A stretch of 64,000 nt of DNA from a virus: positions 1 to 64,000 of the IMG/VR virus record IMGVR_UViG_3300017917_000601; one strand, written 5' to 3'. The notes under the pieces are model-generated. The model saw only the letters and a list, made by a program, of their open reading frames with translations, was not told where the DNA came from and searched no databases. Positions 38,431-57,700 of this stretch are shown one piece after another (the stretch's first letter is position 1; each line of letters starts with the position of its first letter). The position numbers and the translations under genes were made by a program.

Positions 38431-39216
38431 ATGTTTTTTAAAAAATCTACAATATACCTAGACTGTTATACAACCCAAACACATGTTTATGATCTATTCA
38501 AAATTGAATCGGCCAAAAAACACGTTCCTGATTGGTTTAGGGAGTTGCCTAACACGTTTGACGACCCTCGTTCGATAATTCCAATACCTACTGCAAAAAC
38601 TTGCTCAGGTATTGCTAGTTTTTTTAGAACTGGATTTATTATTCCATTATGGTCTGATGCTAAACTAGGTTATGCTCCTATACCCAACGGTTACACTACT
38701 ACTATTCAACCAGTTACACAGTTCTCTGATCAACTAACAAAGTGTCAGATACACGAACAAAAACAAATTGGCAAGGATTTTATGCCTGATAATCTCTATG
38801 CTCATTTTAAAATATTTTCCCCTTGGGTTTTTGAGTGTAGTGAAAATATCGACTGGCTGTGGTTGCAACCAACATATAACTTTAAAGAACCAGATAGCAT
38901 AACAGTCTTACCTGGTGTACTAGACTTTAAGTATAATTCAAATGTTTTTATTAATTTTAGCATAAGAAAAACCAGCCCGTCTAATTCACCTAACTTACTA
39001 AGTTTAGAAGCAGGACAACCGTTAGTTCATTTAGTTCCAATAACTGATAAAGAAGTTATTGTTAGAAATCACATTGTAACTGTTGACCAATGGAATAAGA
39101 TTTCTCAAAAAAATAACAGAGTATTCTTTTCTAATAATCACAACAAAAAACGAAAACTATTGCAGGAGCAAGAAGTTTTAAAAAGCAAGTGCCCTTTTGG
39201 ATTTAAAAAATTATGA
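38431..39216 (+). CDS. conserved phage protein of unknown function beside oxygenases (261 aa)
   Basis: A 261-aa beta-rich protein. HVPDWFRELPNTF (about 31-43), TAKTCSGIASFFRTGFIIPL (about 54-73), WSDAKLGYA, and AHFKIFSPWVFECSENIDWL (about 124-143) are the most distinctive segments. From memory, a protein with the GFIIP.W.D pattern recurs in marine phages next to 2OG-Fe(II) oxygenases. The last residues are basic with a CPFG end. AGAGG lies 8 nt before the ATG. The stop overlaps the next oxygenase start (ATGA). Confidence 0.6.
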   Translation: MFFKKSTIYLDCYTTQTHVYDLFKIESAKKHVPDWFRELPNTFDDPRSIIPIPTAKTCSGIASFFRTGFIIPLWSDAKLGYAPIPNGYTTTIQPVTQFSDQLTKCQIHEQKQIGKDFMPDNLYAHFKIFSPWVFECSENIDWLWLQPTYNFKEPDSITVLPGVLDFKYNSNVFINFSIRKTSPSNSPNLLSLEAGQPLVHLVPITDKEVIVRNHIVTVDQWNKISQKNNRVFFSNNHNKKRKLLQEQEVLKSKCPFGFKKL

Positions 39217-39758
39217 TAGCAGACCACGCATTTAGACCCAACGTTTATACACCTGAAGAGTGTGCAGAAATATGCCGACTCATGGAGGCAAACATCAATG
39301 TAGCGATACGAGATTTACCAAGCAAAGACTCAGTTAAAACTTCTAAAGTCGGCATGGTAGAATTTGGAAAAGTCAAAGATAAATTAGAAAAATTCAAAAA
39401 TATATGCCTCGACGGTAATAAACATTTATTTGGTTTTGATCTTTTTCAGTACACAGACCTAGAATATTTGATGTATAATGTCTACGACGTCGGTGGGGAA
39501 TACAGCTGGCACATTGATGGTAGCCGTGGAGAAATTAAAGATATTAAACTAACTGCACTACTTAATGTAAGTACTGAACCATATGAAGGCGGAGAATTAG
39601 AAGTATTCTTTAGTTCTAAACCAGAACCCATTACCCAATTTAGAGCGCCAGGATCATTTTTTATTTTCCCTAGCTGGATGCCACATCGGGTTACTCCAGT
39701 AACTAGTGGCCGTAGAACAACCATTACCTTATTTTTACAAGGCCCAAATTTTAGATAA
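39213..39758 (+). CDS. 2OG-Fe(II) oxygenase, prolyl-4-hydroxylase-like (181 aa)
   Basis: A 181-aa jelly-roll dioxygenase of the prolyl 4-hydroxylase/PKHD type. The iron triad and co-substrate site are clear: His-x-Asp in YSWHIDGSRG (about 95), distal His in FFIFPSWMPHRVTPVTSG (about 157), and Arg in GRRTTITLFL. YEGGELEVFF is the usual strand between them. It would couple 2-oxoglutarate decarboxylation to hydroxylation of an unknown substrate. It is translationally coupled to the preceding gene. Confidence 0.85.
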   Translation: MIADHAFRPNVYTPEECAEICRLMEANINVAIRDLPSKDSVKTSKVGMVEFGKVKDKLEKFKNICLDGNKHLFGFDLFQYTDLEYLMYNVYDVGGEYSWHIDGSRGEIKDIKLTALLNVSTEPYEGGELEVFFSSKPEPITQFRAPGSFFIFPSWMPHRVTPVTSGRRTTITLFLQGPNFR

Positions 39759-39768
39759 AAGGATCAAT

Positions 39769-40362
39769 ATGAATATTCACAGCCTATTTCCACAACCAGT
39801 TGCTCAAGTTAATCTTAATAGAAAATTAACTGAAGAAGAGTACAACTGCATAATGACTCAAGAGTTAAGGCCAGATTTTGTAAATGCTATTAGTAATGAT
39901 TTTAAAGTATTGGATCGTCCAGAACTAAAACAAATCAAAGCGTTTTGTGAGTACTATACAAACATTTTCTTTGAAAAAGTATTTGATCCCATGACAGAGA
40001 TAAAACCACAGTTAACTCTTAGTTGGGTAAACTATAATAAAAAAGGTGATTGGTGTAACGAACACAATCATTCAAATAGCGTTATTAGTGGTGTATTTTA
40101 TGTACAGACCTACGACAATGATGCTATTATGTTTCATAATGAACCACAGTTTAGACAGCTATCTTGGTTAAATCGAGAAGACAATCCATGGAACGCTGAA
40201 ATGGCAATGTTTCCTGCAATCGAAGGCGACCTATTGTTGTTCAAATCTGATATGAAGCATCGAGTAGTACCAGTGCAACACGATAAAGTGCGTGTGAGTT
40301 TAGCGTTTAATGCATGGATCAGCGGTGATATTGGTGACGACTTGAGTGCTTTAAAACTCTAA
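39769..40362 (+). CDS. 2OG-Fe(II) oxygenase, PF13759-like (197 aa)
   Basis: A 197-aa protein starting MNIHSLFPQPVAQVNL. The ATG at 39769 has AAAGGAT 6 nt upstream and avoids overlap with the preceding gene, so a longer frame from 39706 is rejected. HNHSNSVISGVFYVQ (about 95-109) holds the iron-binding His and the small-residue turn, and DMKHRVVPV and KVRVSLAFNAW supply the distal His and Arg. The reaction type is as for its neighbours; the substrate is unknown. Confidence 0.82.
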   Translation: MNIHSLFPQPVAQVNLNRKLTEEEYNCIMTQELRPDFVNAISNDFKVLDRPELKQIKAFCEYYTNIFFEKVFDPMTEIKPQLTLSWVNYNKKGDWCNEHNHSNSVISGVFYVQTYDNDAIMFHNEPQFRQLSWLNREDNPWNAEMAMFPAIEGDLLLFKSDMKHRVVPVQHDKVRVSLAFNAWISGDIGDDLSALKL

Positions 40363-40371
40363 GGATCTATT

Positions 40372-40947
40372 ATGCAGATTTATGAAAATATATTACCTAA
40401 TGCGCTACTAAGAAAAGTACAAGACGTTGTATTACACGACGGAACACCGTGGCAGTTTACAACTACTACTAACCAATCTGCTACTGATAAGTTATACGGA
40501 TATAGTTGGGGGCATATTGCTTTGGATCAAAACGGCCCAAAAACTGCGGCAGCTGACGTATTACACACTGCGATTTTAATTGCTTTAGAAAACGCTGAAC
40601 AACCTGTCAAAGAAATTTATAGAATACGATTAGGTCTACTAACTGTTACACACGAACGTAGAGTAAACGATCCTCATATAGATATAGATGTTCCGCATAA
40701 AACTGGTTTAATCTATCTCAACGAAGCTGACGGCCCGACTATATTTTATGAAAACAAATATAACACTAGCAGTAGGCTAAAAGGCATGCAATATTTAGAA
40801 AAGGTAATAGGTGATAAGTTAAAAATTGCAGAAGAAGTTGATCCAGTAGTCAATCGAATGGTCATATTTGATGGATTAACTTATCACTCTAGCACTACGC
40901 CTACTACTGTTCCAAGGCGTGTTGTGTTAAACTTTAACTTTAATTAA
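40372..40947 (+). CDS. 2OG-Fe(II) oxygenase (191 aa)
   Basis: A 191-aa dioxygenase with His-x-Asp in NDPHIDIDVPHKTGLIYLN (about 101-119), distal His in FDGLTYHSSTTPT (about 164-176) and Arg in RRVVLNFNF. It is the third oxygenase in a row. AGGAT lies 6 nt before the ATG. The stop shares TTAA with the convergent 135-aa gene. Confidence 0.8.
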   Translation: MQIYENILPNALLRKVQDVVLHDGTPWQFTTTTNQSATDKLYGYSWGHIALDQNGPKTAAADVLHTAILIALENAEQPVKEIYRIRLGLLTVTHERRVNDPHIDIDVPHKTGLIYLNEADGPTIFYENKYNTSSRLKGMQYLEKVIGDKLKIAEEVDPVVNRMVIFDGLTYHSSTTPTTVPRRVVLNFNFN

Positions 40948-41422: not shown

Positions 41423-41430
41423 TATAAATA
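41423..41430 (+). promoter_or_regulatory. T4-type late promoter, distal
   Basis: An exact TATAAATA in the 140-bp gap before the Cys-rich triplet, 62 nt before the ATG at 41492. Confidence 0.55.
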
Positions 41431-41455
41431 GCATTGTACTGCCTTCCCAAATAAA

Positions 41456-41463
41456 GATAAATA
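41456..41463 (+). promoter_or_regulatory. T4-type late promoter, proximal
   Basis: GATAAATA followed by CTAGTAG, 28 nt before the ATG at 41492 and upstream of its AGAGGA site. Two late promoters in tandem suggest high late expression of this cluster. Confidence 0.6.
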
Positions 41464-41491
41464 CTAGTAGATTATTGGCAGAGGAAAAAAC

Positions 41492-42028
41492 ATGGCATCA
41501 TTGCAAAGTTCCACAGTTAGCGGAAACATTACAGCTAGCACCGGTGTTTATAAAGCTGGAGGCAACCAAACCCCATGGTATCGTATTCAGCATTGTGCTG
41601 ATGCTACTAGCACAAGCATTTGTAATCCAACTTATTCATGCGGTTGGTTACATATTAGAACACCGTTACCTGCTACAAACGCGGCTAGCGGTATTGGTTG
41701 GAATCCAAACATTGTAGAAGTCGTTGGTTTTCATACATACAGCGGTGAAGTTACTAGCGATTTTAAAGCTATTGTGAATAATAGCGGATACAGTGATAAT
41801 GCTTGGTACGGGAATCAAATTCGAGCAAATCAAAGTAACTATAGTAGTATGGTTGTTTATCAGTCATCTAACAACTACGGAGGTCTCAGACGTGTATGCA
41901 TTGCTGTTCCAAAGATAGGTTGTTGTTGCCAGGGGTGGATTTGGATACGCTGGTGGAATAACAGTGGCTATCGTGCTGACTTTGCTTGGGGAGTCGGTGC
42001 AAATAGTTCGAGCTCCTCAATATTTTAA
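41492..42028 (+). CDS. Cys-Cys-Cys protein, copy 1 of 3 (178 aa; putative virion tip/decoration protein)
   Basis: A 178-aa beta-rich protein with a fibre-like start (MASLQSSTVSGNITASTGVY). Conserved segments shared with the next two genes are WLHIRTPLP, GWNPNIVEVVGFHTYSGEVT (about 70-89), DFKAIVNN, WYGNQIRAN, GGLRRVCIAVPKIGCCCQGW (about 130-149) and WIRWW. The invariant Cys triplet and repeated W/Y/G pattern suggest a compact domain. No database family is recognised. Two late promoters upstream suggest a virion role. Confidence 0.65.
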   Translation: MASLQSSTVSGNITASTGVYKAGGNQTPWYRIQHCADATSTSICNPTYSCGWLHIRTPLPATNAASGIGWNPNIVEVVGFHTYSGEVTSDFKAIVNNSGYSDNAWYGNQIRANQSNYSSMVVYQSSNNYGGLRRVCIAVPKIGCCCQGWIWIRWWNNSGYRADFAWGVGANSSSSSIF

Positions 42029-42037
42029 GGATATAAA

Positions 42038-42562
42038 ATGGCAAGTTTACAAGGAACGACAGTTAACGGATTACTGACAATAACAGGACAGACTGTTCTT
42101 GCAGGGAATTCAAATATTAGCCCATGGGTGCAATTAAGCCACTGTCCTACACAATACTCTGTAGCAAATAATAGATTACACGTAAGAACACCGATCCCGG
42201 GAAACGCAATGGGTTGGAATCCGTTTATTTTGGAAGTAGTTGGTTATCATACATATAGCGGTGAAGTTACAGAAGATTTTAAAGCTGTTATGAATGTTAA
42301 CGGTAGTCAAGGATCTCCTACTGGGTGGTACGGTAGTCAAATTTTTTCAAATAATGGTACAAACACAGCACCGTTTGTATATCTATCCAACAGTACATAC
42401 GGTGGTGAACATCGCGTATGTTTTTCAGTAAACATGGTTAGCTGTTGTTGTACTGGAAATATTTGGGTAAGATGGTTTAATGGTTCAAGTTATTGGAATA
42501 GTTTTGCTTGGGCAACTGCTTCGTCTAGCGATAGCCAGGCTAGTCCAGTTAAGCAATTTTAA
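42038..42562 (+). CDS. Cys-Cys-Cys protein, copy 2 of 3 (174 aa)
   Basis: A 174-aa paralogue: MASLQGTTVNGLLTITGQTV, LHVRTPIPG, GWNPFILEVVGYHTYSGEVT, DFKAVMNVNG, WYGSQIFSN, EHRVCFSVNMVSCCCTGNIW and VRWF. It is closest to copy 3 at the Cys motif (SCCCTGN). AAGGATATAA precedes the ATG, with 9 nt between genes. Confidence 0.65.
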   Translation: MASLQGTTVNGLLTITGQTVLAGNSNISPWVQLSHCPTQYSVANNRLHVRTPIPGNAMGWNPFILEVVGYHTYSGEVTEDFKAVMNVNGSQGSPTGWYGSQIFSNNGTNTAPFVYLSNSTYGGEHRVCFSVNMVSCCCTGNIWVRWFNGSSYWNSFAWATASSSDSQASPVKQF

Positions 42563-42577
42563 AGAGATAAGTACAAC

Positions 42578-43123
42578 ATGGCAACATTTAACGTAAACAC
42601 AACAATTAATGGAGACTTTACTAGTTCAACTGCTATTTTAGACGGACAAAGTGACATGACTGAGTGGTATCAGCTCAATCATTGTGTTTGTCCAAGTAGT
42701 GACGGGACTAGTGACTGTATTGGTAACGGTAGACCATATCTGCATGTTAGAACACCAATACCTGCAGACGAGTCTGCAGGTGTAGGTTGGGGGCCTTACA
42801 TTTTAGAAGTAGTTGGATATCACAGCTACTCAGGAGAGAGATGGCACGATTTTAAAGCTATTGTAAACACAACCGGTGATGGTACAAATTCTTGGTACGG
42901 AAGCCAAGTCCGTGTTAATACTGGTAATGCTAGTTCTGAACCGTTTGTGTATAGATCTTCAAGCACTTATGGCGGATTTAGACGTATGTGTTTTGCTATT
43001 GGTAAAATTAGCTGTTGCTGTACTGGAAACCTATGGGTTCGTATTTGGACTAACAGTGGGTTTAGAGCTAGTTTTCCATGGGCTACAGAAACTGCTAATA
43101 CAAACAGCACACTAAGATTTTAA
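42578..43123 (+). CDS. Cys-Cys-Cys protein, copy 3 of 3 (181 aa)
   Basis: A 181-aa paralogue: MATFNVNTTINGDFTSSTAI, LHVRTPIPAD, GWGPYILEVVGYHSYSGERW, DFKAIVNTTG, WYGSQVRVN, FRRMCFAIGKISCCCTGNLW and VRIW. It carries two additional Cys near CVCPSSDGTSDC. A short spacer with AGAGATAAG precedes the ATG. Confidence 0.65.
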   Translation: MATFNVNTTINGDFTSSTAILDGQSDMTEWYQLNHCVCPSSDGTSDCIGNGRPYLHVRTPIPADESAGVGWGPYILEVVGYHSYSGERWHDFKAIVNTTGDGTNSWYGSQVRVNTGNASSEPFVYRSSSTYGGFRRMCFAIGKISCCCTGNLWVRIWTNSGFRASFPWATETANTNSTLRF

Positions 43124-43536: not shown

Positions 43537-43764
43537 ATGAGTTTAAAAGATACAGTTACACATTTTAAAGATATCGTTGTAAAAGCTGGTCAAACACTTG
43601 ACGAAGCAATTGAAGAAAATCGCAAGCAGGGAAAAATTAAATTAGACATCTGCAAACAATGCGAAAACTTTAATATGTCTACGAGATTTTGTGGAATATG
43701 TCATTGCTTTATGCCAGCAAAAACTCGAATACCAGGAATGAAATGTCCAATTGACAAGTGGTAA
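43537..43764 (+). CDS. small zinc-ribbon protein (75 aa; DUF6171-like)
   Basis: A 75-aa protein with an N-terminal helix (LKDTVTHFKDIVVKAGQTLD) and a C-terminal zinc-ribbon-like region: CKQCENF (about 39-45), CGICHCFM (about 52-59) and CPIDKW at the end. The order CxxC, CxxCxC.., C-P-[IL]-x-K-W resembles the small DUF6171-type proteins of phages, whose role is unknown. It is followed at once by a strong terminator. Confidence 0.65.
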   Translation: MSLKDTVTHFKDIVVKAGQTLDEAIEENRKQGKIKLDICKQCENFNMSTRFCGICHCFMPAKTRIPGMKCPIDKW

Positions 43765-43802: not shown

Positions 43803-45224
43803 TTATTTTCTTAAACTATCAATTTCAGCTTTTAATGATTTAACAGCTTCGATCAAATAAGCAGTAAGTCTGTTATAACAAACTCCATCTGGCTTACCGT
43901 CTTTTAACTGCACCAAGTTGGGTAAAACTTCGTAAACTTGTTCAGCAATAAGTCCTGCTTCGTTCTTATTATCTGAACCTGCTGTACGATCGTATGTAAC
44001 ACCGTTTAACATTAAAATCTTGTCTAGAGCATCCATAATTGGGTTAACATTCTCTTTGTAAGCAATACTTGAGTTTTCAGTAATTGTTCCAGAGAATGTA
44101 GCGTTACCGTTATTAGCCAGTGTTAATGCGTTAATACCGTTAGTTGACCAAGAGCCGCCAGATGCATTATTAGTTGCATTAACCCAAAATCTTAAAGAAC
44201 CACCAGTATTAGTATTACCAGCAACGATTTCGTTGTTACCGTTATTGCCTAATTGTAGTACGTTCCAGCTTAGGCCTGCTGAATAGCTATCGCTACTGTC
44301 ATATCTTGCCTTAATTGTGTTGCCGCTAGCTACAGTTAATGCGCCAGCAACACTAGTTGCACCGGTAATTGATGCTCCGCCACTTGCTACTGTTAGGCCG
44401 CCAGTGATGTTTGCACCACCAGTACTAACTGTTAACTGACCACCAATTGTGCTTGCCGCGCCAGTAAACAAGTTTCCACTAATACCAACGCCGCCAGTGA
44501 CTACTAACGTGCCAGAGGTAGAATTAGTTGCCGCGGTTCCTGCAGTAAATGTTGTTGCCGCATTAGATGTTAATGTAGTAAATGCACCAGTGCCGCGTGT
44601 GGTAGCACCAATGTTCATACCATTAATGTTACCTGCGGTTGCTGATGTAATAGTAATTGTACCAGCACCAGTTGTTGTGATACTTTGATTGTTAGTACCA
44701 GTGTCTAAGTTAACTGCACCGTTAGCGGCTAAAGTAGTAAATGCACCAGTGCCGCGTGTAGTAGCACCAATGTTCATTCTATTGATGTTACCAGCAGTTC
44801 CTGGGTTAATTGTAACAGTACCAGTTCCAGTTGGTTGGAAACTAAATGTTGCGTTTGTTCCATTAGCAGTAATATTACCTGTTACGGTTAAGTCTGAAAT
44901 GTTTGCCGCGCCACCGTTTTGACTTACAATAATATAATCAGTTCCATCAGAAGCTAGTGTAATACTAGTTCCTGTACCAACTGTTTGTGTGCTAGTTCCT
45001 GATGAGCCGTTGCCGCGAAATACACCACTCGGAGATGATAGAGTTATATTACCGCTGGCAGCATTGAAGAAACTTTGAGACACACCGCTAATTAAAGTTG
45101 GGTTAGGAACTGTAACTGTATAACTAGTTCCTGTAAACTTTGTAAAAACACCTTCACCCGGCGTAACTTGTGTAGTTGTCGTAGTGGTCGATGCTGTTTG
45201 TAGTACGGTATTATAACGTGCCAT
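43803..45224 (-). CDS. tail fibre with C-terminal S74 chaperone (473 aa)
   Basis: A 473-aa fibre: Ser/Thr/Gly-rich shaft with repeated units (FSFQPTGTGTVTINPGTAGN; NGMNIGATTRGTGAFTTLTS twice; GGLTVASGGASITGATSVAG), then the S74 intramolecular chaperone from SSIAYKENVNPIMDALDKIL with Ser and Lys five residues apart, and AGLIAEQVYEVLPNLVQL. The module would drive trimerisation and then cleave itself off. A terminator follows the gene. Confidence 0.85.
   Translation of the reverse strand: MARYNTVLQTASTTTTTTQVTPGEGVFTKFTGTSYTVTVPNPTLISGVSQSFFNAASGNITLSSPSGVFRGNGSSGTSTQTVGTGTSITLASDGTDYIIVSQNGGAANISDLTVTGNITANGTNATFSFQPTGTGTVTINPGTAGNINRMNIGATTRGTGAFTTLAANGAVNLDTGTNNQSITTTGAGTITITSATAGNINGMNIGATTRGTGAFTTLTSNAATTFTAGTAATNSTSGTLVVTGGVGISGNLFTGAASTIGGQLTVSTGGANITGGLTVASGGASITGATSVAGALTVASGNTIKARYDSSDSYSAGLSWNVLQLGNNGNNEIVAGNTNTGGSLRFWVNATNNASGGSWSTNGINALTLANNGNATFSGTITENSSIAYKENVNPIMDALDKILMLNGVTYDRTAGSDNKNEAGLIAEQVYEVLPNLVQLKDGKPDGVCYNRLTAYLIEAVKSLKAEIDSLRK
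44573..44803 (-). repeat. internal direct repeat in the S74 fibre gene
   Basis: A stretch of about 65 bp is repeated with few changes at about 44575-44640 and 44735-44800, encoding MNIGATTRGTGAFTTL twice. It is a coding repeat of the fibre shaft, a likely site for recombination with other fibre genes. Confidence 0.7.
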
Positions 45225-45597: not shown

Positions 45598-48500
45598 TTA
45601 TCTTTGTCCAAAATACACTAGTGCGACAGGAGCCCCGTCGATGCCGCCTACAAAGTTCATTCTTGCTGTAACTTTAATTTCACCACCCGTTGTAGTAGTA
45701 ATTGTGTTATTAGCAATATAAATTTGTCCTGATGTAATTGTATTTACGTTTAGTGTACTCTGACCACCACCAATTTGTGCCGCAATATAGCTCTTGATAG
45801 CTTTCTGAGTAGGTATAACGTTATCGCTGTTAGCAGTAAAGTACGGGTCTGTACTAAACTGCGTAATAACCGCTGATCCAACGCCAATTGACACTGCACC
45901 AAGTTGCAATGATTGTAGACCTGCTAGGTTAAACGCACTAGCGTTCAATGTAGCAGTACCAGTTGCCTGCTGAACTCCAAACAAGTTACCAACGTTAAAG
46001 TTACCATCTTGGTCAGTACTTGTGAAGAACACGCGACCGCCAGCTGTAGCTAATTGTTGATTTGCTTGGATTGCAGTAGAAGCATCAACGTTTGGATAGT
46101 TTGTCTGAGTTTGATTACCAGTACCAATGTACAAGAAGTCATGACCAGTTAGTCGAACTTGGCTGTACTTCAATCTAGTAGTAATTACGTCGTCGTGCTC
46201 CGGTGCTAACGATGTTGTTAGGCCTGGGCTAATCTGGAATTGTGCAGTGTAGTTGCCGGCTGTGCCTAATACGTTTGTAACGGCAACTAGTTTATACCAA
46301 GTATTTGGAATACTTGCAAACTGAACGTTTGCACCCGGACTTGGTATAGTGAACAAGTTTGCCATGTTGATAAAGCTAGTATTTTGATAAGTATCAGCGT
46401 ATCCATCACCAGTTAGTGTTGCAGTAGCAGTGGCATTATTAACACCCCTATTACTGAAGCTTGGATTAGCCAATGCGCCATCGCCTGTTCTTACACGAAT
46501 CGGTGCTGTGACTACTTTGTTAGGATCAAACTGTGATACTATTGGGCTAGCTCTATAAACTCCAGATAATCCAGATCCGGTAGTTAGCGGTATAGAAGTA
46601 GAACTTCCAGAAACTGCACTAACTTTAAACGATGTGTTAGCAACAATACTACCAGAAATAATATAGTATGTTGTACCAGTAGCTAGTCCGTAGTCATCTA
46701 ATCCTTCAAAATCAATTGGTTGATTGTTGACTAAATTGGTTGTGTCGGCTACTGTAATTACATCAGTCGCAGAATCTGTAGCAGTTACTATACCCTTAGC
46801 GTACCCAGAACCTGGATCAATAATTCTAAATTCTTGAACTTTACCGCTTAAGGCTCTGATCCTTCCTTGGGTTCTAGCACCAGTTCTAATGCTCGATGCA
46901 ATAGTTCCACTAGTGTTAGAAATAGCAACCCATGTTGGTTGATTTCCAATTGCTGTCAGTAAAGGATTTCCAAATGCTAGAGCTTTCCAGTTAGTAGAAC
47001 TGCCTGGCATTGATTCTTGTTTCCAAGTAACTCCATCTGTACTAGTTGCACAAATGTTTTGACCGCTAGCGATTGCTATAAACAAACCTTGGCCGTACGC
47101 TACTTTAGACCAGTTTGCACTTAATGGCAGGCCGGCTGGTGATAAAATCCATGACACACCTTTGTTTATACTGTATGCAACTCTGCGGCCGCCTGTTTCA
47201 ATTGCAACAAATCTGCCATTTCCGTATGCGACACTCGACCATGTTGTGCTAGCAGGCAAATTACCCCCTGGCGCCCAAGTCACTCCGTTTGCAGATGTCG
47301 ATGTTACAACACCACCAGTTTGAATAGCAACAAATGTTCCGTTACCGTATGTAATGGCGCTGTAATTTCCAGCTGATAAACTAGCAATAGCTGAGGATCT
47401 GTTAATCCAAGTTACACCGTCAGTACTTGATACTGCGGTAGCTGTACCGCTATTTCCGCCCACCGCAACGTAAACACCGTTACCATATGTTATTGACTTT
47501 AGTGTTGTTTGACCTGTTGAGTTTGATGCTGACCATGCTGATCCTAAAGCTGCCACAGTTTGGTAAGAAGAATCAGTCGAACCGTCTGCAACTGCGACAA
47601 ATCTTGCACCAGTGTCAACAATAGTAACAGCAGGAACTGAGCTATATCCAACACCTCTGTTAGTTATAGTATACCCGCTAACACCATTGTTAGTTAGTGT
47701 TGCAGTAGCAGTAGCAAGTGTGCCCACGTAGCCCAACTGTGCACCATATGTTGCGGCTGAACCAATACCGTCAGTGAAGGTTGGGGGTGTAGCTGATAAT
47801 GTTCCAGAAGTAATAGCTACATAATAGTTGGTTTGATCTGGATTTGGTGCTGTATCTAGATAATAGATAAAATCACCAGGGTTAACACTTAACCCGTTGC
47901 CCCATGGGTTTGCACCTGCAACCGGTGGCTCTATAACTACACTAGGAGCACTGTAATAGTCTTGTCCCCAAGTGTTAGCAGTAATTACTGTAACTTGGTT
48001 AGTCTCAGCTGTAATTGAAGGTTGGCTAGTATAACCAGATCCGTTAATTAGCATTGAAACAGTTTGTATAGTTCCGTTTAGTACTGTGCATGTAGCTGTT
48101 GCACCTGTACCGCCGCCGCCCTGGATTTTAATTACAGGAGGAGTACTATATCCAAAGCCGCCGTTTAGGACGTTAATTGCTACAATTTGCGTAGCAGTAG
48201 TTCCAGTTCCAATTACTGCTTCAAATGTTGCACCCACACCACCGCGGCCACCAATAGTAACAGTAGCAGTAGCACCTTGTCCGCCGCCGTAAGTTATGTC
48301 AGACCAGTTTGCACTTGCTGGCAGAGCGCCGCCCGCGGTCCAAGATGTTCCATTAGAGCTGTAAGCTGTTCTAGTACTTGGGCCATTTGCAATAGCAACA
48401 TAATTTCCGTTTGCATACTTTACGGCATTCCACTGTGCGTTTGCTCCGGGCATAGTTCTTGCCGCAGAGTTAAAACCAGGAGCACTATAAGACACTCTAG

Positions 48501-51500
48501 GTTCTATAATATATGCAGTTGTTAAATCTAAATTATTAACAACAGCTCTACCAGGAATAACGTGATCCCATCCAGCTTCATATAAAGAAATAGTTTGTCC
48601 GCTAGTAGCTGTTAACCCAGTAACTGCTGATCCGCCAACTGTAGTTTTTAATGTAAATGTTGTTGCACTGTCAACAGACGCAACATAATAAACTGTGTTT
48701 GCGTTAAAGACTCCTGCTGTTGCGGCACTTAAAAATATTGGTTGATTTACATATAAGGTTGCTGTGCTGGCTACTTGCAATACTGTAGTAGTTGACCCAG
48801 TTACAGTCAATGGTGTAAAGCTGTCTTTGTAAACTTGAGCATCTTTACTACCGTTGTTATATGTTAAGATATTGGCATATTGGCCAACACCTGTACCAGC
48901 AGTAAGTTGAATTCTCATTCCAACATACGCACCGCTTAGTAGCGTATCAGTTGCGGCGATTGTAATATAACCAATTGCGCCGCCCTGTGCTACGTTTGCA
49001 TTTGTTACATAACTTGTACCGCCTTCGCCGTTGCCGTCATTAAGGTCTAAAAGTCTTGTTTCGAATACACCAGCATCTCTGTATTCGTCGCCAATTGCAA
49101 CAGCATTAAAACCAGAACCACTAATGTTATAAGATGCGTTAGAATAGTGTTTACCTGCGTTCCTGAATTCAAATCTGTAGATTTCGTTTTCAGCATCTGT
49201 TACTACGCTAGTAATAAACGCATCGAAGTATCTGTTATCTACAGTACCGTTAATTGGTTCTTCAAACGAATCAACACCTTCAGCGATAACACCGTACACA
49301 CCGTAAGAACTGTTACCGTTTGTAGCACGAATACGTCCACCTAGTTCTGCTAGATAACCAGCATAACCATAGTAGTTAAACACAGAAACAAGTTCTGTTA
49401 ATGAGTTGCTACCTGTACACCATACACCAATACCATCGCTGATAATAGTAGTATAGTCGTTAGCAACCATTGATCGATAGCCGCCTGCATGTAAGGCACC
49501 GTCAATCTTAGCACCAGTACATGCTGTACCAAACATTGTACAGTTTTGTGTATAGCATGAACGACTATCAATCCAAACATTAGAATCGTTAGGTCCAAAG
49601 CCCGGATCAAGTGAAGCGTATGCTCCAGCGGTTGGTCTTCTTGTACCGTAGGCATTTGGAGTTGTCAATGTTCCGGATAGACCAGTCATTGTAATATTTC
49701 TAATACCAGATCCGTTACGAACCAAGAACATGTTTTCGAGTTGAGATCCATCAACTGCGTTTACATATTGAATAACTGCTCTAGTTGACTTGTAGTTACC
49801 TAGGTAGTTTAGGTCATACGCTAGTGCTTTAACGTATGCTTGAGTATCTCTTAAGCACTTAGCTAAATCATACGCATAAGTTACTGTCATTGTACCAGTA
49901 CCGTCTAAGGTGATGTCAACTTCAATCGTTGATCCGCGCTGTGAAACAACAGTAAATGTTGAAGTTGTTGGAACTGTATAGACATAATAAGTCTGGCCAA
50001 TAGTAATTCCGCTACCGGTTATGTTTGTTCCGCTGAATACAATAGGATCGCCAACAGTTAAATTATGAGCAGAGCTTGTTGTAAATCTATTATTAGATGC
50101 TGTTGTACTTGTAACAGTACCACCAAATGTATTAGATACCCATGCTGCCGCTTCTCTAGCAATAAATTCAGAGTTGGCTTTAAGAACTTCTGCTCCTCGA
50201 ATTGTTTCTAGCACATTGTTATAAGAGATAGAACCATGGACTTCTGGAGTATGGTTTGCAGTTACAGACGCTGTCATACTTCCAACAGTGTTGTTGATTA
50301 CAAATGCAGATCCGCTCTTATAATTTTCAGTAATAGTTAGTGCGGTTGAAGTTTCTACTGTGTTAATCCAATATACTTTATTTGATACTAGGCCACCAGC
50401 TTTATTAATAACAGCAGTCATTGATCCTGTATCTGTTGCTAAAGTTACGGCAGTGCCTCCGTTAGTTAGGCTTATAGTTATAGTGCTACTGCTGGCTGTT
50501 TTAACATAATATAACTGGAATGGGATAATATTTCCCATAGTGTTGCCAGTAAAGTAAATTTGCTGTCCTGGAGAAATTCCAAGATTAGACACTGTATCAC
50601 TTAATGTAATTAAGTTGCCAGTAGCGTTTGTAGCACTAGCAGTTGCAGTGGTGTTAGCAGGTAGATTGCTGAATGTAATTGGCATATTAGCAACCATACC
50701 GCTTGTGCTAGTAACTGTTAATCTGTTAGTGCCTGTTGTTACAGAAGTTAGTGTAGTTGTTTTAACACCACGAATTCTAGCAATAATATCGCCAATGGCT
50801 ATCTGTAGTTGTGCTGTTGCGCCAGCGCCTGCGATCATCTTTGCTTTTTGTCCAACGAAGTTTAGAGCACCTAAAGTTGCTGACTTTTGATTATTAACGT
50901 TGTCAACAAGTCGTTGAGCAGATGCGTTTAGTCTATAGTAGGCTCTACCTGCTGATATAGAAGCAAAGTTACTGCCAAACACTAAGTCATCAGCCAATGC
51001 TTCTACAACTAATTGTGCATCTCTGTTTGTTAGACTAGAATCAATAGCTGAGTCTTGGAAGAACTTGTAAACCCATTGCTGTGCATCTGAACCAATTTCT
51101 GCTTTCTTACTTAATAGGAATGTTCTTGAAGCTTGTAAGCTGGAACTTGTGAGTGCAATAGCGGCTGTAGGTTCAATTTTTGCGTTTGCTACACCGTTGT
51201 TAATCCAATCAAGCACATCTTGCACACGGTCTTGAGCAAATGTGCCTGCGCCTGCATTACCAGTCGAACCTGCTGTAACCTGTAGTACAGTGTTACCTGC
51301 TGTTGGTGTAACTGATGTTCCTTGAACAATCTGTCCAATGATAGTTTTTAGTCTGCCAAGAGCCGCTGTAACTGCTTCAAGGTATGAATCTCTAATTTGA
51401 CGGATACCTAAAGAGTAGTAAGCACTGCCGTTTATTAAACTTTGAGTGTTGCCGCCGTAGGTCATATCATACTGTAGGCCGTCAAGCACAAAACTAACAT

Positions 51501-54500
51501 CGCGCACTGTTTCACTTTGATATAAGTCGCCAAATGCTGTCCAGATTGCATTATAGTTTACATTTAGATAAGCTGAAATTTCAGCTTTGATAAATTCATA
51601 GTTTTGTACAATCTGCGCTTTACCGTCACCGTATGTAGATAGGAATGAAGTATTATATCCTGTAACTGTTGGTAGAGCAAATGCTGGTACTCTGCTAGGA
51701 CCATTTGCAATAATATCTCTAATTAAAGAAATATTGTTTACCACTCTATCAGATGCTGTTACGCTTCCAACATTACCAGCTGGCAGTGTTGTAACTTGTG
51801 TAGCTGTATTTCCAACAGTCGGTGTTACAGAAACATTTGAAATAATGTCGGCAATGATAGAGTTAACTCTTCCCATTGCACTTGCTGATTTTTCTTTGTC
51901 TGTAGCTAAGTTAATATTAGCTGGCGCTGGAGAAATAGTAGTCGATCTTAATTCGTCGCCAACAATCGCAGTATTTCTTGGAAGTACTATTGGTAAAACT
52001 TCTGGGAAGCTGCCTGTCTTAACACTAATTGTAGTATTTCCAACAGTTGCCGCAGGAATAAAAGTAGTATTTCCGCCGTTAAGACCTTTAGTTACAATAG
52101 AAACTAAAGAAGTTACTAAACCAGTTGCACCAGTTTCAGCGGTTAATGATACATCAATTAACTGTCCTGCTTGATTTCCTAGTACAACACCATTTAGTGT
52201 TTGGTAGTTTGATGCAGGTGCTGTATTTTCTAATACATTGTTTGATACAGATACAAGATAGTTTAAAGCCGCAACAAATGGAGGAATGTCATATACGTCA
52301 ACACCAGTAACGTAAGACGTGCCTGCTTCGTTAAAGTAAGCTAAAGCGGCCTTAGTAGTATTTAAATTTCCACCGTGACCAATGTCGTAAATGATTGCAT
52401 CTAACACAATGCCAGCGTCTCTCTCAGTTTTAGATTCACTGTAAGAGAATGTTCCAGTATTAGCAGTTGAACTAGCAGTTAAATTCAATGTTGAACCGCT
52501 AGGTGTTGTTGAAATAGTAAATGTTGTATTGCTAACTATTGACTTAACATAGTAAGTTGTTCCAGCAGTGATTCCACCAGCTGATGCACTAAACACAATT
52601 GGCATGTTTGTGTACAAAATATCAGTGCTTGTAACTGTAATTTGATTAGGAATTACTGGATCAGTAGAAGCGGCTGTAGCACTTACAGTAACCTTATATG
52701 TATATTTTACATAGTTATTAACTTCTTTAAGAATAAATTGTTTATTCTTTGATAGTAATTCTTGAGCATTGATATTTCTATAGCCGTGTTCAATAATTTG
52801 GCAAGCATAATTGACGGTCTTCCAAGGCTTGTCCATAGTTGTGCCTTGCCCGTCGACTAGTGTGTCAACCCCGTTTGGAGCAACATATACTAGATTGTTA
52901 ATTTGTCCGTAGTATAACCACTCAGGTGCATTATCTTTAACACGTAAAACTTGGCCATCAGTGCCAATTGGTAGTCTTTGTGGGCCGTTAGCACCGTAGA
53001 AGAACATGTCTCCTTGTGTTGTTAGAACAGCAGATTCTGCACCACTGGCTAATAAGTTCCAATATTGTCCTGTTTGATCTGCATCTGGACGGTTTCCGCT
53101 AGCGGCTACGTGTGCGGCTACGCAGATGTAACTGTTAGCACCAAAGTAAACTGAGTCACCTAGAACATAAGTAACACCAGATTCCCAACTTACCGCATAG
53201 CCAGTATTTGAGACTGTTGTAATTGCAGTTGTGCTAACGCCAGTGACGGTGACTGTTAAGTCGTTTGCTGGACTTAAACCACCTAAGGCTGTTCCTAAGA
53301 TTTTAATCTTATCGTTAAGAGCATAACCAGATCCCTGTGCATTAACAGCAACAGTGTATGAAGTTCCAGTGACTGATACATTAAATGTTGCTGAAGATCC
53401 AGTACCTACTAAGTTTGTACCAGAAACCCCTGTGTAAGTCCTTGTAGAGCCTACCCATCTAATGCCAGAGTTAAGTCTCGACCAATAGGTTGAGAAAGGT
53501 GGTTTAGGATCTGTAGTGCCGGTCATTGTACCAGATGCAGTTGTTAATTCGAATGTTGCACCACCGGGGGCACTGCTGATTGTAAAGTGTGTTGAATCAA
53601 CAATAGTCTTTACATAGTATGTTGTACCCGAAACAATGTTTCCAAATGTAGTTCCTGAGAATACAATTGGTAGATTTGCTGTTAGAACATTAGTGTTGTC
53701 GCTGATTGTTATTTGATTTGGTCTGCTTAGGTCAACACCGACTGTTGTATTAGTTGCTGTTACAGTTTTTACAGAATTGTCAACTAATGCAAGATATGTG
53801 TATCCACCTAATCTTACAACACTACCGATTTTATAAGAAGTTCCGCTGTTCCAATCGCCTTGGAAATCAAAGCCTGTTGTAAAGGGTCTCCAATATGCTG
53901 TTGCAGTTACTGGATTCTGATTTGAATGATTTTGTAGGGCTGTATATGTGTTTCCGCCGTAGGTAACTAGATCACCTAGTTGATATTCTGTCGAGTCACT
54001 CCAGCTATTTTCAAATTCTAAACCGTTAACAAAAATCGAAAACTTTGTTAGATCAATAGATGTTCCTGTTGACTGATGTAGTGTTGTACAAATGTACAAG
54101 TTTGCTCCGAAAGAAACAATATCGTTAACTTTATATCTAACAGATGACCCGCTCCATGGGCCTTTATACTCAATGCCTGCATTAAACACGTCCCACTTAG
54201 CTAGATCAGCTTCAAGTCCGCCTGCTTCAGCAGTAGATGAAGCGTTTGAAATATGTGCAGTATTACAAACGTAGGTATAACCTCCCCAGGTTACAATATC
54301 TCTTACACGATATCTTGTACTAGTTGTCCAACTTCCTCTCCAGAAGGTATTGGCTGCTAGTACGTCCCACTTAGCTAGGTCAGCTTCAAGTCCTAAGAAT
54401 GTAGGACTTACGTTAGTTGCAGATGTGTGGTATTCGTTACATACGTAAACTGTGCCGCCATACACTACAACGTCACCTAAATTATAGGTAGTTGTTGGAG

Positions 54501-54717
54501 TCCAATCGCCTCTCCACTGTGTACCATCAGAAACTAAGTTCCATTTGGTAGGGTTAGCATCTAAGTCGGTTACAAATGTTGATGAAGCAGTATGGCTTAT
54601 TACACAAATATATGTTTTTCCGCCAACTGTTACTACGTCATCGACTACGTATGCTGTACCGTTTGCCCAAGCGCCTTGGTACACAAACTTAATTCTACCT
54701 AGTTTAAATTCTGCCAT
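45598..54717 (-). CDS. giant modular tail-fibre/baseplate protein A (3039 aa)
   Basis: Residues 1-330 hold about six chitin-binding-like modules of the pattern W-x-G-x-W..Y..GD.V.Y.G..Y (WRGDWTPTTTYNLGDVVVYG; WRGSWTTSTRYRVRDIVTWG). A beta-helix region around 640-1000 and 1640-1840 includes NLVYVAPNGVDTLVDGQGTT and GGRIRATNGNSSYGVYGVIA. Repeats of the type TVTSTDILYTNMPIVFS/GTTYYVK occur throughout. Residues about 2150-2600 carry BNR/kelch-like units (WSSVAYGNGRFVAIETGGRR). The end has RLTGHDFLYIGTGN, FFTSTDQDGNFNVGNLFGVQ and DNVIPTQKAIKSY. It is paralogous to the 2377-aa protein and shares modules with the 1134-aa fibre. Host-glycan binding is inferred. Confidence 0.8.
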   Translation of the reverse strand: MAEFKLGRIKFVYQGAWANGTAYVVDDVVTVGGKTYICVISHTASSTFVTDLDANPTKWNLVSDGTQWRGDWTPTTTYNLGDVVVYGGTVYVCNEYHTSATNVSPTFLGLEADLAKWDVLAANTFWRGSWTTSTRYRVRDIVTWGGYTYVCNTAHISNASSTAEAGGLEADLAKWDVFNAGIEYKGPWSGSSVRYKVNDIVSFGANLYICTTLHQSTGTSIDLTKFSIFVNGLEFENSWSDSTEYQLGDLVTYGGNTYTALQNHSNQNPVTATAYWRPFTTGFDFQGDWNSGTSYKIGSVVRLGGYTYLALVDNSVKTVTATNTTVGVDLSRPNQITISDNTNVLTANLPIVFSGTTFGNIVSGTTYYVKTIVDSTHFTISSAPGGATFELTTASGTMTGTTDPKPPFSTYWSRLNSGIRWVGSTRTYTGVSGTNLVGTGSSATFNVSVTGTSYTVAVNAQGSGYALNDKIKILGTALGGLSPANDLTVTVTGVSTTAITTVSNTGYAVSWESGVTYVLGDSVYFGANSYICVAAHVAASGNRPDADQTGQYWNLLASGAESAVLTTQGDMFFYGANGPQRLPIGTDGQVLRVKDNAPEWLYYGQINNLVYVAPNGVDTLVDGQGTTMDKPWKTVNYACQIIEHGYRNINAQELLSKNKQFILKEVNNYVKYTYKVTVSATAASTDPVIPNQITVTSTDILYTNMPIVFSASAGGITAGTTYYVKSIVSNTTFTISTTPSGSTLNLTASSTANTGTFSYSESKTERDAGIVLDAIIYDIGHGGNLNTTKAALAYFNEAGTSYVTGVDVYDIPPFVAALNYLVSVSNNVLENTAPASNYQTLNGVVLGNQAGQLIDVSLTAETGATGLVTSLVSIVTKGLNGGNTTFIPAATVGNTTISVKTGSFPEVLPIVLPRNTAIVGDELRSTTISPAPANINLATDKEKSASAMGRVNSIIADIISNVSVTPTVGNTATQVTTLPAGNVGSVTASDRVVNNISLIRDIIANGPSRVPAFALPTVTGYNTSFLSTYGDGKAQIVQNYEFIKAEISAYLNVNYNAIWTAFGDLYQSETVRDVSFVLDGLQYDMTYGGNTQSLINGSAYYSLGIRQIRDSYLEAVTAALGRLKTIIGQIVQGTSVTPTAGNTVLQVTAGSTGNAGAGTFAQDRVQDVLDWINNGVANAKIEPTAAIALTSSSLQASRTFLLSKKAEIGSDAQQWVYKFFQDSAIDSSLTNRDAQLVVEALADDLVFGSNFASISAGRAYYRLNASAQRLVDNVNNQKSATLGALNFVGQKAKMIAGAGATAQLQIAIGDIIARIRGVKTTTLTSVTTGTNRLTVTSTSGMVANMPITFSNLPANTTATASATNATGNLITLSDTVSNLGISPGQQIYFTGNTMGNIIPFQLYYVKTASSSTITISLTNGGTAVTLATDTGSMTAVINKAGGLVSNKVYWINTVETSTALTITENYKSGSAFVINNTVGSMTASVTANHTPEVHGSISYNNVLETIRGAEVLKANSEFIAREAAAWVSNTFGGTVTSTTASNNRFTTSSAHNLTVGDPIVFSGTNITGSGITIGQTYYVYTVPTTSTFTVVSQRGSTIEVDITLDGTGTMTVTYAYDLAKCLRDTQAYVKALAYDLNYLGNYKSTRAVIQYVNAVDGSQLENMFLVRNGSGIRNITMTGLSGTLTTPNAYGTRRPTAGAYASLDPGFGPNDSNVWIDSRSCYTQNCTMFGTACTGAKIDGALHAGGYRSMVANDYTTIISDGIGVWCTGSNSLTELVSVFNYYGYAGYLAELGGRIRATNGNSSYGVYGVIAEGVDSFEEPINGTVDNRYFDAFITSVVTDAENEIYRFEFRNAGKHYSNASYNISGSGFNAVAIGDEYRDAGVFETRLLDLNDGNGEGGTSYVTNANVAQGGAIGYITIAATDTLLSGAYVGMRIQLTAGTGVGQYANILTYNNGSKDAQVYKDSFTPLTVTGSTTTVLQVASTATLYVNQPIFLSAATAGVFNANTVYYVASVDSATTFTLKTTVGGSAVTGLTATSGQTISLYEAGWDHVIPGRAVVNNLDLTTAYIIEPRVSYSAPGFNSAARTMPGANAQWNAVKYANGNYVAIANGPSTRTAYSSNGTSWTAGGALPASANWSDITYGGGQGATATVTIGGRGGVGATFEAVIGTGTTATQIVAINVLNGGFGYSTPPVIKIQGGGGTGATATCTVLNGTIQTVSMLINGSGYTSQPSITAETNQVTVITANTWGQDYYSAPSVVIEPPVAGANPWGNGLSVNPGDFIYYLDTAPNPDQTNYYVAITSGTLSATPPTFTDGIGSAATYGAQLGYVGTLATATATLTNNGVSGYTITNRGVGYSSVPAVTIVDTGARFVAVADGSTDSSYQTVAALGSAWSASNSTGQTTLKSITYGNGVYVAVGGNSGTATAVSSTDGVTWINRSSAIASLSAGNYSAITYGNGTFVAIQTGGVVTSTSANGVTWAPGGNLPASTTWSSVAYGNGRFVAIETGGRRVAYSINKGVSWILSPAGLPLSANWSKVAYGQGLFIAIASGQNICATSTDGVTWKQESMPGSSTNWKALAFGNPLLTAIGNQPTWVAISNTSGTIASSIRTGARTQGRIRALSGKVQEFRIIDPGSGYAKGIVTATDSATDVITVADTTNLVNNQPIDFEGLDDYGLATGTTYYIISGSIVANTSFKVSAVSGSSTSIPLTTGSGLSGVYRASPIVSQFDPNKVVTAPIRVRTGDGALANPSFSNRGVNNATATATLTGDGYADTYQNTSFINMANLFTIPSPGANVQFASIPNTWYKLVAVTNVLGTAGNYTAQFQISPGLTTSLAPEHDDVITTRLKYSQVRLTGHDFLYIGTGNQTQTNYPNVDASTAIQANQQLATAGGRVFFTSTDQDGNFNVGNLFGVQQATGTATLNASAFNLAGLQSLQLGAVSIGVGSAVITQFSTDPYFTANSDNVIPTQKAIKSYIAAQIGGGQSTLNVNTITSGQIYIANNTITTTTGGEIKVTARMNFVGGIDGAPVALVYFGQR

Positions 54718-54737
54718 TTTATATCATCCTCTGATAG

Positions 54738-54745
54738 TATTTATC
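54738..54745 (-). promoter_or_regulatory. T4-type late promoter for giant fibre A
   Basis: The minus strand reads GATAAATA followed by CTATCAGAGG, 20 nt before the ATG at 54717, with the AGAGGAT site in the leader. Confidence 0.62.
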
Positions 54746-54754
54746 TTTATTAGA

Positions 54755-57700
54755 TTATGGGGTTCTATGAGTACTATTTCTCATGAAAAATTCTAACGCT
54801 TGCATTTCGCCATCTACACCGGCTAATGGACCAGTGAAATTTACTTTATTTTGCATTTTAACACTACCGTTAGGCACAGTTGTTCCAATCTTATTTGGCC
54901 CCCCAACTGTTACTAAACCAGCGGTTAGTTGTCCAGTGAATGTGTTAGATCCACCCTGGCTCAATCTGCTAGTTAGGTAAGTCTTAATTGCTTTTTGTGT
55001 AGGAAGTATTTCATCGCTGTTAGCAGTAAATGTTCCATCTGTACTAAACTGTTTAATTATAACGCTCGAACCGCCTACAGAAATGCCGCCTAACGATAAT
55101 GTCTCTAGTCCAGTTAATCCAAATTGTGAAGCACTTAGAGTAACAATACCAGTTGACTGTTGAACTCCAAACAAACTACCAACTTTAAAGTTACCGTCTT
55201 GGTCAGTACTGGTATAGAATACTCGTCCAAAGTTTGCTTCAACTGTTTGATTTTGACTGCTTGCAACATAACCACTATCGGGTATGCCTGGATAGTTTGA
55301 TGTTTCAAAGCTACCATAACCAATGTTTAAGAAGTCGTGATTTGTTAATCGAGCCTGGCTGTATTTAGATCTAATACTTATTTGTGCATTGTTTTCCGGA
55401 CTTAATGCCACAGTCATATCTGGAGATATAGATATGTTAGCTTCTAAGTTAGGTGCTGTTGTTCCAAATACTGCAAACGCACTAGTTACTTTGTAAATAG
55501 TGTCATTACCTGCGATAGTTAAACTATCGCCGGGGTTAGGTAATCTGTTTAGATTATTAACGACAATAGTTAATCCAGTTTGATACTGATCAGCATATCC
55601 GTTACCTGATACTGTAACATAAGTTGAGTTAGTATTGTAACCAGATCCTTTGTTAACCATCGACGGACTGCTTAACACTCCGTTACCAAGTCTCGGTGTT
55701 ACTACTGCTAAGTTAGTTACGTTAGGGTCAACGAATGTAACAGTAGGAGCTGTACTATAGTTAGAACCAGGCTCCCATTCACTAATACCTGTCATAACCC
55801 CTGATGTAATTAGTGCTCGGCCCTTAGTTTTTGCACCGGCCTGAATTACTACGCCAGATCCTTGGCCTGATAAACTAGCAAAATGTCCATTATATGTTGT
55901 GCTAGTAAATCCAAAAGACATACAACCGTAGTTGTACGGGTTATTTGTAGTCTTTTTCTTCCAGCTTCCGCCACCTTCAGTTACCCATACATCAGTACTT
56001 CCAGATTTAACTGCTGTAAAGACACCTTGACCGTATTCAATAATGTCAGCGGCAATTGATAAGTTTGAAGAATACCAAGTTGATCCATCGAATGTCCAGG
56101 CTGTCCTACTAGATGTACTTGATACTGCATGGAATAAGTTATTGCCAAATGCTATACTAGACCATGTTGTTGAGAACGGCAATGTAGAGCTAGACCAAGA
56201 TGCTCCTCCGTTAGTGCTGTATGCGGCAACAGTTCCGCCTGATGCAATAGCAACAAAAATTCCGTTACCGTAATCAATACTTGACCAGTTTGCACTTGCT
56301 GGCAACGTTGCACTAGTCCATGAGAATCCATAATCTGTAGAATATGCGGCACGATTTGTTCCTGCTGATATTGCTACAAATACACCATTGCCGTATTTGA
56401 TATGAGTCCAAGGACCATTATTAGGTAGGGCTGAACTTCTCCAACCCTGTCCGTTAGAGTTAGATCTCCAGGCTTTACTGTCTGAAGAACTAATTATGAC
56501 CCAGTAGTTATTACCGTAGGCCACACCGCTCCAAGTTTGAGACTCGGGGAGAGCAATTGAAAGCCATACGCTGCCGTCTGTTGAATAAGCACCAGTTGCG
56601 TTGCCATCTGGCACTGCCATCCAATTATTTAAACCGTATTCGATGTCTTTCCATGATGTTCCTGGTGCAAGATTAACAGGCAATGTAGCAGGAGATGCTA
56701 TAAAGTCTGGTTCTGAATAGACTGTCCTAGGTTCTATAAAATAAACTGAAGTAAAGTCTAAGTTAGTCTCAATAGGAGTACCGACGTTAAAATGGTCCCA
56801 ACCTACCTGGGCTAAGTTCATAGATCCAGATTTAGATGTCAATGTTATTGCAGGGCCGCCGAGTGTTTCACTAACTTGAATAGTTGCTGGTGCGCCACCG
56901 CCACCGGCATTAATAGTAGTGATATAATAATCTTGTCCGATATCAACTCCACCAAATAATGCTGTTGAGAATGTTGCACTCATACTACCAATGCCAAAAC
57001 TTAATAATTCTTTCTTAGCTGTACTTGTAGCTAACATTGATCCGCCTGTTCCAGATGTCAATGATACTGGACTGCCGGCAGTTCTAGTAATCATTGATCC
57101 GCTTGCTGTTGTGAGCAACAATGCACCACCGCCCGGTGATTGAGAGATAGTAAAGGTCGTTGCGTTGTTAACAGCAAGAATATAATATGTAGTTTCTGCT
57201 TGTATATTACCAAAAGTTGTTCCAGTAAACACAACTGGTTGATTTGGGATAAAACCTGCGGTAGAGCTTACTGTAATTAGGTTTGATGTTGCTTGAGTAG
57301 CAGTAGCAGTCACAGTAGTCAATGTTGATGAAACTTGGAAAGATGTTGCATCGATAATTCTACTAATATAATATTTTTGCCCTTCAATAATATTTGTGCC
57401 GCCGATAATTGGTTCGCTAAACACTATTGGGTTAAGGACAACTAAAGAATTAGTTGAAACTACTGTAAAAGCATTAGTACTAGAACTTGTTGATGTTACT
57501 GTTACCTCAACAAGTGCATTTGAAATACTAAACACGCCTGTAGGGTTAAAAGGGCCAGTTGCACTAATAATGTCGTTTACATAATAAACTTTTCCTACAG
57601 TAATTCCACCGATAGCATTACCAGTAAACTGAATTGGATAGTTAACTACCATGTTTGTTGTGTTACCAACAACATAACCGGTGTTAGACGTAAAGTTCAT

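Follow-up and report, generated by a model that had tools for sequence, protein, structure and literature searches.

The stretch of DNA analysed here (the window, 64,000 nucleotides) covers 64 of the 76.9 kb of a virus record. The T4-type major capsid protein has its best relatives (69-72%) in phages of 285-470 kb, and these include Sinorhizobium phage Phosso, Vibrio phage 2.275.O, and PA5oct. Genes for the tail sheath, terminase, and UvsX are also present, and the record therefore probably represents part of a large T4-like phage. Three adjoining genes of the plus strand are considered below: A (positions 41492-42028, 178 aa), B (42038-42562, 174 aa), and C (42578-43123, 181 aa), each with an ATG start. 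The original prediction described them as three adjacent genes of 174-181 aa with common motifs, and this description is borne out: GW.P.I.EVVG.H.YSGE, DFKA, WYG.Q, and CCC[QT]G[WN] are found in all three products, at identical spacing. Pairwise identity over the alignment is 48-49%. Each product has a short N-terminus resembling a fibre repeat (STVSGNITAS...), followed by a head of ca. 150 aa, predicted to be all-beta; A has the appearance of a stand-alone fibre-tip-like protein. A profile search of the 76.9-kb record revealed no fourth paralogue. An extra CCC-coding DNA pattern at position 74337 of the record was rejected as another copy, because the same search finds three copies only.

Cysteine makes up 0.82% of the 20,299 residues in the main ORFs of the window. 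From this composition ca. 0.011 CCC triplets would be expected, while three are observed, all of them in A, B, and C (codons 41921-41929, 42443-42451, and 43013-43021, respectively); the claimed rarity of three consecutive cysteines is therefore real for the main predicted proteins of the window. All CCC-bearing members of the family described below also carry one cysteine immediately after the first strand of the head, in the context HC (YC in protein A of contig L010). Further loop cysteines are seen in types A and C (in the window proteins, three altogether), while B and the family member of contig L048 have just the one.

No match to A, B, or C was found in Pfam, and no meaningful match in PHROGs. 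A PDB profile search returned nothing below an E-value of 0.03, and tblastn with C as the query gave no match at E 0.1 among 50,697 phage records. The family thus stands apart from Pfam, PHROGs, PDB, and INPHARED, as had been proposed. Several candidate matches were considered and dismissed. The alignment with phrog_11660, which includes a "tail protein" of Caulobacter phage Karma, scored 12 bits over a short stretch and was taken as chance; judged by eye, its aligned part (FIYGDTVTYLGETYFCL...) resembles a carbohydrate-binding-module repeat. The PDB sequence matches 9rcs and 9rcu (E 0.03-0.3) were too weak, as were the fold matches to 4i0w, a picornavirus, and others.

Scans of IMG/VR, combined with profile searches of the resulting contigs, revealed members of the CCC family on seven further contigs (L010, L011, L012, L013, L015, L035, and L048). 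Three copies, syntenic with those of the window, are present in L010. L011, its near-copy L012, and L013 also have three copies each, the middle one being without CCC. In L015 and L035, the DNA upstream of the one complete copy shows the end of a further, truncated copy, and in L048 a single domain is fused to the C-terminus of a fibre. Stand-alone loci that were readable in full always have three genes, in the order A-B-C, and type C is found at all stand-alone loci. Orthologues of the window and L010 are 73-81% identical, while the paralogues of either phage share 41-50%; the duplications that gave rise to the three types therefore predate the split between the window phage and L010. In a phylogenetic tree, type C forms one group (support 82/85; 97% of bootstrap trees), and across the deeper split the groupings of A and B have only weak support (61-66). 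Neither the constant copy number nor the age of the types supports the earlier suggestion of an expandable cassette.

The middle copies of L011 and L013 lack both the CCC and the loop cysteines but keep the rest of the domain. The CCC motif, described as invariant, is therefore so for the three copies of the window and not for the family, and it is dispensable in one paralogue of one lineage. Because the loop cysteines and the CCC were lost together, they may form one optional thiol site; the joint loss is a single evolutionary event and so gives limited support to this reading. A different cysteine, C138 in the numbering of paralogue C, is invariant in 15 of 15 sequences.

Two late-promoter-like sites lie on the plus strand in front of the trio: TATAAATA at 41423-41430, ca. 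60 bp upstream of gene A, and the 17-mer AATAAAGATAAATACTA at 41450-41466, which spans GATAAATAC at 41456-41464. Of the original claim that the genes are under two late promoters, the number of sites stands, while both are upstream of gene A only. In the orthologous region of L010, TTATAAATAC is also present and the counterpart of the 17-mer is GATAAATACTA. An identical copy of the 17-mer is located at 54735-54751 on the minus strand, just upstream of a 3,039-aa ORF of a phrog_9851 tail fibre (45598-54717, minus strand). By itself, TATAAATA is not enriched in the window (four occurrences versus seven expected). ATAAATA, by comparison, has 12 of its 15 sites in the 3.3 kb of intergenic DNA of the window (mean 2.6 and maximum 8 after shuffling), and nine of the 15 are followed, 7-68 bp further on, by a start codon of the same strand. 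Given this concentration of ATAAATA between genes, the phage probably relies on a late promoter of the T4 type whose first base is degenerate. The distribution of ATAAATA, the shared 17-mer, and its L010 counterpart support a predicted late co-expression of the trio with tail fibres.

Directly downstream of gene C is a gene coding for a 132-aa protein of the DUF7936 family (PF25590; 43136-43534, plus strand), with a C-terminal W..DCCPDG motif. It is followed, at 43803-45224 on the minus strand, by a convergent gene for a tail fibre with a C-terminal S74 intramolecular chaperone domain. L010 has the same arrangement, the S74-type fibre being convergent and two genes beyond the trio. In L011, L012, and L013, the gene immediately before the trio, on the same strand, is that of an S74 tail fibre (849-909 aa in L011 and L013), and in L015 and L026 fibre genes lie downstream of the cassette. 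Between the DUF7936 and S74 fibre genes of the window, at 43537-43764, a 75-aa zinc-ribbon-like protein with C..C-type cysteine pairs is encoded, which matches DUF6171 just below the cut-off as well as phrog_13558; a similar gene is present in L010, and the gene lists of L011 and L013 show none immediately behind DUF7936. The region 45598-61888 contains two giant tail-fibre ORFs of 3,039 and 2,377 aa, both matching phrog_9851. On the other side of the trio, at 39213-40947, there are three consecutive plus-strand genes with 2OG-Fe(II) oxygenase-type matches; L010, too, has several oxygenase-like genes upstream of its trio.

A DUF7936 gene, scoring above the Pfam cut-off, is found directly 3' of the last copy, fused or not, in all eight records. 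Independent DUF7936 genes come after ordinary tail fibres in G003, G005, Roseobacter phage CRP-5, and Synechococcus phage S-EIVl, and the family is therefore fibre-linked in its own right. In a Flavobacterium immuto phage, the gene preceding DUF7936 has no match, and an annotated tail fibre is located a few genes upstream. No paper naming DUF7936 was found in the literature searched. Two of its genes (L212:2654-2962 and L213:4001-4417, from Synechococcus phage S-EIVl and Flavobacterium immuto phages) carry the annotation "lysozyme", probably in error, since DUF7936 is their sole Pfam match. The genes of known intermolecular chaperones of fibres lie immediately behind the fibre genes (PMC7289586). 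The DUF7936 protein is thus a probable fibre-assembly partner, beside which the CCC proteins would take the place of the fibre. In all six aligned DUF7936 companions of stand-alone cassettes, a C-terminal W....CC.D is present; it is not found in the DUF7936 protein after the fused L048 fibre or after the L026 fibre, which has no CCC. Among these related sequences, the Cys-Cys pair appears to track stand-alone cassettes, a correlation that is suggestive only.

The fused form, known from one contig (L048), links the family to fibres directly. The open frame in question is 749 aa or longer, its 5' end being off the contig; the CCC-family domain takes up residues ca. 587-747 (E 2.6e-53) and retains HC, LHIRTP, YGYHNYAAE, CCCVGALWIR, and the C-terminal WG. 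The rest of the frame consists of VGIGT-type repeats, with many PHROG matches to tail and tail-fibre proteins. Since no S74 domain follows, the CCC-family domain is the natural end of this fibre; A, B, and C similarly have no match to Peptidase_S74 (PF13884). When the L048 domain was compared with the 50,697 phage records, no match was found at E 1. A fibre tip of L015 that lacks CCC gave no significant match to the CCC family in a profile comparison (probability 1.7%).

AlphaFold was run twice, with an alignment of 15 rows. The models are all-beta, and confidence is modest (pLDDT 65-67, pTM 0.66-0.67); in them, the CCC falls in the turn that joins strands 134-142 and 149-157. Foldseek searches with these modest-confidence models gave weak matches (best E 2.8e-4, TM below 0.55), and no match in PDB with E below 1e-3. 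For the second, better-matching model, the named viral matches, also weak, were largely tailspikes, tail fibres, gp37, and YadA/collagen-type fibres. The matches of the predicted folds are compatible with a fibre tip and are not proof of one.

We conclude, with a probability of roughly 70%, that A, B, and C belong to a new family of stand-alone receptor-binding tip subunits of tail fibres, probably assembled with the help of the DUF7936 protein. The head domains of a tail fibre would be made as separate small subunits, expressed late together with the tail fibres. Their folding or trimerisation would probably be aided by the adjoining DUF7936 protein, and the tips would be placed at the end of the tail fibre or on the baseplate, in contact with the host surface. 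The CCC in the hairpin turn of the head, together with one to three loop cysteines near the N-terminus of the head, may form a thiol cluster that stabilises the tip through disulfides or a bound metal. Direct observation covers the genes and their homology, the natural fusion in L048, the gene neighbourhood, the shared upstream 17-mer, and the joint loss of cysteines. We infer the trimeric state, the location in the virion, the binding of a receptor, the chaperone role of DUF7936, and the chemistry of the cysteines. A more elaborate version, in which A, B, and C form a heteromeric tip that is locked by the thiol cluster of loop cysteines and CCC and aided by the Cys-Cys-bearing DUF7936 partner, is quite speculative.

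The original prediction left the choice between receptor binding and decoration open. Receptor binding is the better supported of the two, given the homologous fibre C-terminus and the tail-fibre neighbourhood. The proteins could form separate short virion fibres or a decoration on the head, neck, or baseplate, adhesive but distinct from a receptor-binding tip, as their small stand-alone late genes, three paralogues, and short fibre-like N-terminus would allow; we consider this unlikely in view of the fusion to a tail-fibre C-terminus in L048 and the association with S74 fibres as well as with DUF7936, a family that follows fibres. It is improbable that A, B, and C are helpers of fibre assembly absent from the finished virion, similar to T4 gp38 or V22 gp27. 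In L011 and L013 the trio is situated directly 3' of S74 fibres, where such helpers are encoded (PMC7289586), but one would not expect a chaperone to persist as the C-terminus of a fibre when no S74-type cleavage domain comes after it, as is the case in L048, and DUF7936, found behind fibres without a CCC-family domain as well, makes the better candidate for a helper. That the proteins are not adhesins at all and the CCC serves metal- or thiol-based sensing or catalysis is very improbable: three consecutive cysteines are indeed rare, and loop cysteines accompany them, but the L011/L013 paralogue that lacks the whole cluster keeps the remaining domain, and no enzyme family was matched by A, B, or C in Pfam, PHROG, PDB, or fold searches.

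If the CCC and loop cysteines of the tip subunits form a thiol site, both disulfides and a metal are possible candidates for its chemistry. Phage proteins fold in the reducing cytoplasm, and this would slightly favour a metal, or late oxidation, at the CCC site. Disulfides have a precedent in the tail of Agrobacterium phage Milano (PMC10811340), and a metal in a fibre tip has one in the iron sites of T4 gp37 (PMC6957217).

The host range of a phage among bacteria is set by its receptor-binding tips, and to our knowledge the tips of environmental jumbo T4-like phages are mostly unannotated. The CCC family, its fused and split forms, the link to DUF7936, and the joint loss of cysteines are new here. 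They point to a candidate tip family that can be recognised by its sequence signature, both in fused form and as separate subunits, while DUF7936, so far a family without an assigned function, emerges as a likely partner in tail-fibre assembly. For many uncultured phages, these are two testable predictions.

Among known systems, a separately encoded tip has a precedent in T2-type phages, where gp38 sits on the gp37 trimer (PMC12892980). Like the T2-type gp38 adhesins (of Salmonella phage S16 and PP01, for example), A, B, and C are small late proteins encoded beside a tail fibre and are proposed to be separate tip subunits that set host contact. In L011 and L013 the gene order also corresponds, with the fibre followed by the trio on the same strand, while the S74 fibre of the window is convergent to the trio. 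The heads of gp38 are glycine-rich PGII sandwiches (PMC12892980); A, B, and C, in contrast, have no glycine runs beyond GG, are rich in cysteine and aromatic residues, and occur as three paralogues. DUF7936 would be a partner of these proteins and not a homologue. Phage Milano offers a cysteine-disulfide precedent within a tail, including the short tail fibres, though its bonds are inter-subunit, in the sheath and baseplate, and neither a CCC motif nor homology is shown (PMC10811340). In T4 gp37 the iron sites are formed by histidines (PMC6957217), while A, B, and C carry cysteines, and the sequence relation to solved fibre tips is undetectable. The likeness to the heads of long tail fibres, such as the T4 gp37 tip and those of the cyanophage type, lies in the predicted all-beta terminal domain and in the L048 relative, which is itself the C-terminus of a fibre.
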